A DNA stretch of 64,000 bases from Bacteroidales bacterium (GTDB lineage: Bacteria > Bacteroidota > Bacteroidia > Bacteroidales > Bacteroidaceae): the NCBI GenBank assembly GCA_024690405.1, contig JAILCU010000109.1, positions 1 through 64,000 of the forward strand, given 5' to 3'. The first letter of the stretch is position 1. Every line of letters begins with the position of its first letter. The notes below the pieces were generated by a model that was not told where the DNA came from, made no database searches, and worked only from the letters and a program-made list of their open reading frames with translations. The position numbers and the translations under genes were made by a program. This document shows positions 43,999-57,320 of this stretch, one piece after another.

Positions 43999-44029
43999 TT
44001 TGCGCACTTCGCGTTTTTTGCTATCTTTG
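43999..44029 (+). promoter_or_regulatory. Full Bacteroidetes promoter: TTTG-N19-TATCTTTG
   Basis: tttgcgcacttcgcgttttttgctatctttg; matches both the -33 and -7 consensus with consensus spacing. Confidence 0.7.
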
Positions 44030-44079
44030 TAGCGTTAAAGGAAGGGTTGAGGGGGCGCCGGCGGGCGCCCGGAACAGGG

Positions 44080-44263
44080 CCCGGTTAACATAGTGAAAAA
44101 CACATACAAAGAAAGGGGCCGGTTAACATAGTGAAAAACACATACAAAGAAAGAGCCCGATTAACATAGTGAAAAACACATACTAAGAAAGAGCTCGGTT
44201 AACATAGTGAAAAACACATACAAAGAAAGAGCCCGGTTAACATAGTGAAAAACACATACAACG
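44080..44263 (+). repeat. 38-bp tandem repeat array, ~4.7 copies, downstream of 43999-44029 promoter
   Basis: ccggttaacatagtgaaaaacacatacaaagaaagagc repeated head-to-tail with no spacers. Confidence 0.96.
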
Positions 44264-44452
44264 AGCAGAAAAGAAAAAGCATCCGGCCGGATGTCAGGTT
44301 TATACCGACTATTTATTAACTTTTAAATCTATTTTTATTATGAACAACACATTGAAATATTCCCTGCACATGATGCAGAACAACGCGCCCCCGTGACGGG
44401 CTCAACGCGCCGCGCCAGCGAAAAAGCTCACCGCCCACGCCCCCCTTTCGTA

Positions 44453-44496
44453 CAGGGACAGACGATAGCCACCCACGGCTCCCTCGTCTGTCCCTG
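44453..44496. other. Perfect 13-bp inverted repeat with 18-nt loop
   Basis: cagggacagacga - tagccacccacggctccc - tcgtctgtccctg. Confidence 0.92.
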
Positions 44497-44577: not shown

Positions 44578-44760
44578 AAAAGGCAAGCGCCAAGGGCCAA
44601 ATGGCCAAGAGCCAAGAGCCAAATGGCCAAGGGCCAATGGCCAACAGCCAAGAGCCAAGGGCCAAATGGCCAAGGGCCAAGAGCCAACAGCCAATGGCCA
44701 ACAGCCAACAGCCAATGGCCAACTGCCAATGGCCAACTGCTAAGGGCCAACAGTCAGTGT
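44578..44760. repeat. Heptamer-type repeat array (gccaaNN/ggccaa)
   Basis: gccaagggccaaatggccaagagccaagagccaaatggccaaggg... over ~180 bp. Confidence 0.95.
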
Positions 44761-46769: not shown

Positions 46770-46833
46770 GCGGCAGGTTCCAGATTTCAAGTTCCAAGGT
46801 TCCAAGGTTACAGGATTCCAGGTTACAGGTTTC
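46770..46833. repeat. Degenerate ggttccaag/ggttacagg repeat
   Basis: ggcaggttccagatttcaagttccaaggttccaaggttacaggattccaggttacaggtttcaaa; resembles 48875-48960. Confidence 0.8.
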
Positions 46834-46940
46834 AAACCCGCCTCCACCGAATAGCCCGCTGCAGCCTTTACAGCACGGACACGCCTGTGCTGAGGCACCA
46901 TTCACACATAAAACAAAAAAAAACAACACATAAAAAGAAT

Positions 46941-48857: not shown

Positions 48858-48874
48858 TGGCTGAAAGCAGGTTT

Positions 48875-48960
48875 CAGGTTCCAAGTTCCAGGTTCCAAGT
48901 TCCAGGTTCCAAGTTCCAGGTTCCAAGTCCCAGGTTCCAAGTCCCAGGTTCCAAGTTTCA
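48875..48960. repeat. 14-bp tandem repeat (caggttccaagttc) x6
   Basis: Direct inspection; starts 18 nt after the mreC stop. Confidence 0.96.
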
Positions 48961-57193: not shown

Positions 57194-57320
57194 GGGTTTA
57201 AAGGGATTAAAAGGGTTTAAGGGTTTAAGAGTTTAAAGGGTTTAAGAGTTTAAGAGTTTAAGAGTTTAAGGGGTTTAAGGGTTTAAGGGTTTAAGGGTTT
57301 AAGAGTTTAAGGGTTTAATG
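57194..57320. repeat. Octamer repeat gggtttaa/gagtttaa, ~14 copies
   Basis: Direct inspection; contains a canonical G-quadruplex pattern at 57270-57297. Confidence 0.95.

Follow-up and report, generated by a model that had tools for sequence, protein, structure and literature searches.

What does a consensus promoter serve when no ordinary gene appears to lie behind it? In the window, the whole 64-kb stretch of DNA analysed here, such a promoter reads into a tandem array, a palindrome and an 18-codon micro-ORF, in a locus flanked by PAP2 and aminotransferase genes. The original prediction offered a repeat-based non-coding RNA, a regulatory leader or the leader of a decayed gene. Our preferred reading, with a probability of roughly two in three, is that the locus is the 5′ end of a lost HU-HIG gene, whose leader is complementary to the small RNA FopS and which would now act as a decoy or persist as a relic. 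The genome itself is probably a rumen-type Bacteroidales MAG, judging from the origin of its relatives.

Promoter and hairpins of the locus

The promoter, identified by pattern match, is of the Bacteroidota type TTTG-N19-TATCTTTG (plus strand, 43999–44029; TTTG at 43999–44002 and TATCTTTG at 44022–44029). The pattern TTTG-N18..20-TAnnTTTG has two matches in the 64 kb, including this promoter, while shuffling gives an expectation of 0.15; the occurrence exceeds chance. Transcription is predicted to start at about 44036. Direct reading places the GC-rich leader hairpin gggcgcc-ggcg-ggcgccc at 44053–44070 on the plus strand. The palindrome CATCCGGCCGGATG follows at 44280–44293, with 0.11 occurrences expected by chance and counterpart hairpins in orthologous leaders. 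These three elements had all been predicted, and each was recovered at its position. Farther downstream, direct reading and folding revealed a 13-bp inverted repeat, CAGGGACAGACGA...TCGTCTGTCCCTG (plus strand, 44453–44496), with a weak U tract, which is a possible transcript end. Gene order around the locus, with its PAP2 and aminotransferase neighbours, was not conserved in the relatives. In the congener G064, a broken HU-gene copy also adjoins the PAP2 ortholog, in a different orientation.

The micro-ORF is a remnant of an HU-HIG gene

The micro-ORF MNNTLKYSLHMMQNNAPP* occupies 44340–44396 on the plus strand, as predicted. Its sequence MNNTLKYSLHM represents the N-terminal end of a DNA-binding protein of the HU-HIG (HU_rel) type and conforms to the N-terminal motif MxxT[LI]KYSxxM. 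By homology and DNA alignment it belongs with the MKNTLKYSLHMQKNP... proteins, a family assigned to HU_rel/HU-HIG by hmmscan. A complete HU domain spans approximately 120 aa, whereas the homology here ends at about codon 20; because the domain is lost beyond this point, the ORF is a frameshifted 5′ remnant and not a member of the family. In a 63-nt alignment with the ortholog L225, the coding part carries a 1-nt gap and a 2-nt insertion adjoining the TGA. No homology to an HU-HIG gene was found past the micro-ORF up to 44520, and a search for a smalltalk remnant 3′ of it gave no significant similarity. A PF18291 scan of the own genome, which is 88% complete, detected no intact copy of this subfamily.

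Very likely, the locus is an HU-HIG gene that has decayed behind a promoter and leader that still look intact. Among the options originally proposed, the leader of a decayed gene is correct, since the coding part carries a frameshift and nothing of it is left beyond some 20 codons, and the shared element order of intact orthologous loci supports a regulatory leader; a repeat-based non-coding RNA gained no support. The description of a promoter with no ordinary gene is valid only locally, as the gene was originally HU-HIG. The 18-codon ORF is very unlikely to encode a working small protein or a leader peptide controlling the downstream aminotransferase. Its start context is good, and short derivatives of the same N-terminus (35 aa and about 28 aa) exist in G064, but the ORF ends by a frameshift relative to the orthologs, the aminotransferase has its own promoter-like TATCTTTGCAGCC approximately 30 nt ahead of its start codon, and no HU-type ORF was found beside the aminotransferase in relatives.

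Orthologous loci share the leader architecture

A scan for the peptide NTLKYSLHM identified full-length MKNTLKYSLHMQKNP... orthologs of 165–174 aa in other rumen Bacteroidales MAGs. They comprise L221 (171 aa, roe deer MAG), L224 (165 aa, rumen-type MAG) and L225 (174 aa, congener G064, Red_deer_1_mag_14 from red deer); a further ortholog, L226 from a rumen-type MAG, is cut by the contig end. These four loci and the window share the same order of promoter, variable segment, hairpin, AU-rich start region and N-terminus, and the hairpin of the window leader is of the CATCCGGCC type of this KYSLHM subfamily. The promoter TACCTTTGC is present in all four ortholog leaders, at the matching place as TACCTTTGC(A)GCATC. 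The hairpin CATCCGGCCAGATG occurs in L221, L224 and L225, while in L226 it reads CATTTGGCCAATG, in which one C-G has become T-A on both sides. All four continue with a TTAACC-rich start region and ATGAA(G/A)AACAC, with an insertion between the TTAACC stretch and the ATG in L221 and L224. The locus resembles HU-HIG/HU_rel genes (PF18291, TIGR01201) accompanied by smalltalk (NF033879), matching the four orthologs in promoter, hairpin, start region and the first 13 or so codons, and differs from them in the loss of the coding sequence after about 20 codons and in its private 38-bp leader array. Smalltalk-like ORFs lie 3′ of L221 and L225, scoring above (25.0 bits) and below (19.5 bits) the NCBIfam cut-off of 24.7 bits, respectively.

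The variable segments carry different tandem repeats: 22 bp × 2.5 in L221, 22 bp × 2.7 in the broken copy L227, others in L224 and L226, and only short TAACCAT repeats in L225. Judged from these sequences, the stretch from promoter to hairpin varies strongly within this gene family and is prone to repeats. G064 contains two broken copies, L227 and L228, in addition to the intact L225. Both have internal deletions, and the leader hairpin is missing in L227. These deletions join short identical stretches and leave the first 12–26 codons. Separately, two intact HU-HIG genes of the own genome, L174 (G000:C124) and L175 (G000:C89), share a long leader segment, GCGGGAAGCGGCCACCCGnTGnAGnTGGTC, as well as the site AATACCATAAAAAACA near the start codon. 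This segment gave no convincing family match in Rfam.

The 38-bp array is private to the host species

TRF reports the tandem array at 44079–44261 (plus strand) with a period of 38, 4.8 copies and 93% matches, as the top-scoring row of the window; the 4.7 near-identical repeats originally described are real and exceed chance. Its core occurs five times in the locus, with none expected in shuffles, and nowhere else in the own genome when up to three mismatches were allowed. The unit was absent from all 138 congeners searched, had no match as an exact pattern in GTDB genomes and IMG/VR contigs, and had none by blastn against plasmids. By these searches the array is private to the host species. 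The proposed conservation check in relatives thus gave a divided answer, in which the array is lacking but the promoter, hairpin, start region and N-terminus are kept in orthologs. Since tandem repeats are frequent in the intergenic DNA of this genome, with 33 TRF rows across the 64 kb, the array by itself is unremarkable.

The argument that a period of 38, not being a multiple of 3, makes the array non-coding is too simple, because a possible 12-codon frame lies within each copy (GTG AAA AAC ACA TAC AAA GAA AGA GCC CGG TTA ACA TAG). These predicted frames would overlap successively by TAGTG. The 19-nt core is free of substitutions, and the five substitutions among the first four copies all lie outside it. 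A CRISPR array was ruled out, as spacers are lacking and the units run head to tail. Other intergenic arrays in the window consist of 7–8-bp units (CAAGGGC, CAGGTTC, AAGGGTTT) and lie at 44584–44750, 46774–46835, 48868–48957 and 57211–57318.

The start region is complementary to FopS

FopS (RF04319) is a family of paralogous sRNAs of Bacteroidota (Rfam). In B. thetaiotaomicron, the FopS 5′ end binds susC mRNAs and other mRNAs for polysaccharide utilisation at their start codons and blocks their translation (PMC11697453). One clear FopS gene (80 bits, 5′ end GTGTTTTTCATGGTATTAGATTTAAGGTTAAT) was detected in the own genome, the only strong one at 88% completeness, and the 5′ end is identical in the congeners read. 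The translation-initiation region of the locus (plus strand, 44304–44351) is predicted to pair with nucleotides 1–42 of this FopS at −39.0 kcal/mol over 42 nt (z −7.8), an extended 5′-end pairing at the start codon. Of the 10,660 windows scanned along both strands of the 64-kb stretch, it is the best FopS-pairing site (next best −31.1, mean −14.5, s.d. 3.2 kcal/mol), and none of 2000 dinucleotide shuffles reached its energy. The orthologs pair less strongly, at −34.2, −34.1, −28.3, −27.8 and −20.2 kcal/mol. Predicted accessibility of the FopS sites at the locus is average; competing structure enters these duplex energies only through this simple check. This start region is probably a FopS-binding site. 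The predicted pairing around the ATG is like that of FopS-10 on the susC gene BT_3983, although the targets named in the paper are homologs of susC and glycoside hydrolases (PMC11697453) and the gene at this locus is a broken HU-HIG gene.

Every array copy contains TGAAAAACAC, a perfect complement of FopS nucleotides 1–10, by exact match at 44094, 44132, 44170, 44208 and 44246 on the plus strand. Genome-wide there are 11 such sites: these five, one opposite FopS itself and five elsewhere. Among the last is a short ORF (L123, G000:C18:3765) that starts with ATGAAAAACACC (MKNTEGNGVAKGASSPRR..., 33 aa). The array copies pair through the seed only, at about −14 kcal/mol, and the unit as a whole gives an unexceptional −16 to −21 kcal/mol. 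The seed complement is absent from the orthologous arrays. We also considered the array as tandem FopS promoters on the minus strand and rejected this, because the −7 box TA is missing from the TTTCTTTG of the repeat and the −33 element is TTTT.

The same complementarity bears on a further alternative, namely that the locus encodes a FopS-like antisense sRNA running on the minus strand from 44350 to 44266 and ending at the palindrome followed by TTTTTCTTTT. A full-length RF04319 match does cover 44350–44266, the minus strand offers a hairpin and a U-rich run, and antisense RNAs account for 4 of the 14 FopS in B. thetaiotaomicron (PMC11697453). However, the match scores 27.4 bits, below the cut-off and half of the gathering threshold of 56, the minus-strand promoter TTGT-N19-TATTTCAA is poor, and the hairpin is conserved in leaders on the sense strand, where the U-rich run is mostly missing. 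In addition, sub-threshold FopS matches in congeners are mostly antisense to gene starts, two of them HU-HIG starts; one of the HU-HIG genes under a weak match, L162 (MRETIKYSTCMRANPMK...), resembles the micro-ORF MNNTLKYSLHMMQNNAPP. Since such matches generally lie antisense to starts, complementarity of the start region explains the match at the locus and no sRNA gene is needed. We regard an antisense sRNA gene as improbable.

FopS complementarity is enriched at HU-HIG starts

Under a composition-controlled z score, 7 of 31 HU-HIG start regions fell below −4 with FopS, as compared with 0 of 175 start regions of other genes (Fisher p 9e-7); the two HU-HIG genes first detected via the FopS model were excluded, and related genes in the HU-HIG set do not count as independent. 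FopS of the own genome served as the query for all species. The controls, ORFs of 180 aa or more, were chosen mechanically among those of the window and the congener loci, and their signal could be weakened because some starts may be wrong. Beyond the 1% cut of the controls lay 29% of the HU-HIG start regions with the real FopS and a mean of 0.9% with shuffled FopS. A fresh HU-HIG set, fetched afterwards, gave 8 of 40 versus 1 of 175 controls (p 6e-6). A motif common to HU-HIG start regions, TTTCATTAACCTTAAATCT...TACCATG, matches the FopS 5′ region in reverse complement. Some HU-HIG start regions are ATTAACC 7-mers matching FopS. From this complementarity, we infer that FopS may target HU-HIG mRNAs. 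The susC genes of the own genome were rejected as the main FopS targets, as their start regions are not strongly complementary to FopS, those of the long susC genes giving roughly −16 to −23 kcal/mol.

DNA-binding, histone or nucleoid proteins go unmentioned in the main text of the FopS paper (PMC11697453), and the predicted complementarity of the locus start region and of HU-HIG start codons is new. The established role of FopS is to repress sugar-uptake (susC) mRNAs. A further class of targets is predicted by the enrichment, namely DNA-binding proteins of the nucleoid type, which exist in many copies in these genomes.

Decoy or relic

These findings suggest a course of events in which a frameshift broke the HU-HIG coding sequence and everything beyond about 20 codons was lost, while the promoter, long leader, hairpin and start region survived, and the hypervariable stretch between promoter and hairpin grew into the 38-bp array in this species. 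In intact relatives, the start region would be the likely FopS site, where FopS would prevent the start of translation, as with B. thetaiotaomicron susC. The RNA of the window locus, if made, would retain the start region with the strongest FopS pairing in the window, together with five seed-complementary sites, and the locus would exemplify a pseudogene leader that keeps or strengthens sRNA pairing after loss of the protein. As no protein is left to control, any remaining activity could only be FopS binding, as a decoy, or none, as a relic.

The inert alternative shares the gene identity with our preferred reading and denies a present function: an undecayed promoter and leader of a broken gene, ordinary repeat expansion, and seed matches inherited or arisen by chance. 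We give it an even chance. The repeat-rich genome, the broken copies in G064 and the restriction of the array to the host species are all consistent with it, but the complementarity of the start region, the strongest among the orthologs, speaks against it, and the core-sparing substitutions weakly favour retained seed sites (sign test, ~0.03).

Bacterial sRNA sponges, or decoys, are transcribed RNAs that reduce the amount of free sRNA, and carry several seed-complementary sites on one transcript. Given transcription from 44036, a single RNA with no intact protein would hold five perfect 10-nt sites and one 42-nt site, and 5 of the 11 genomic seed complements fall in this locus; in this layout it would resemble a sponge, but it is not conserved. 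That the transcript binds FopS at all six sites and relieves the repression of HU-HIG or susC mRNAs is nonetheless unlikely, as the array sites pair only weakly overall and an array of this kind is missing from the congeners searched. The broader proposal, that an HU-gene leader became a natural FopS decoy freeing these mRNAs and that FopS controls the HU-type nucleoid proteins of the genus, is speculative to a similar degree.

Two minor observations concern FopS. At five congener loci (L104, L105, L106, L107 and L157), FopS-type 5′ ends (GTGTTTTTCATGG..ATTAGATTTTTAAGG) lie a few nucleotides behind tRNA-Asp(GTC) genes and have no visible −7 box of their own, as if released from the tRNA transcript. 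At L164, a weak FopS match is antisense to the start of the gene MIKKTLCFSNPAYLSLRNG..., which resembles cas1.
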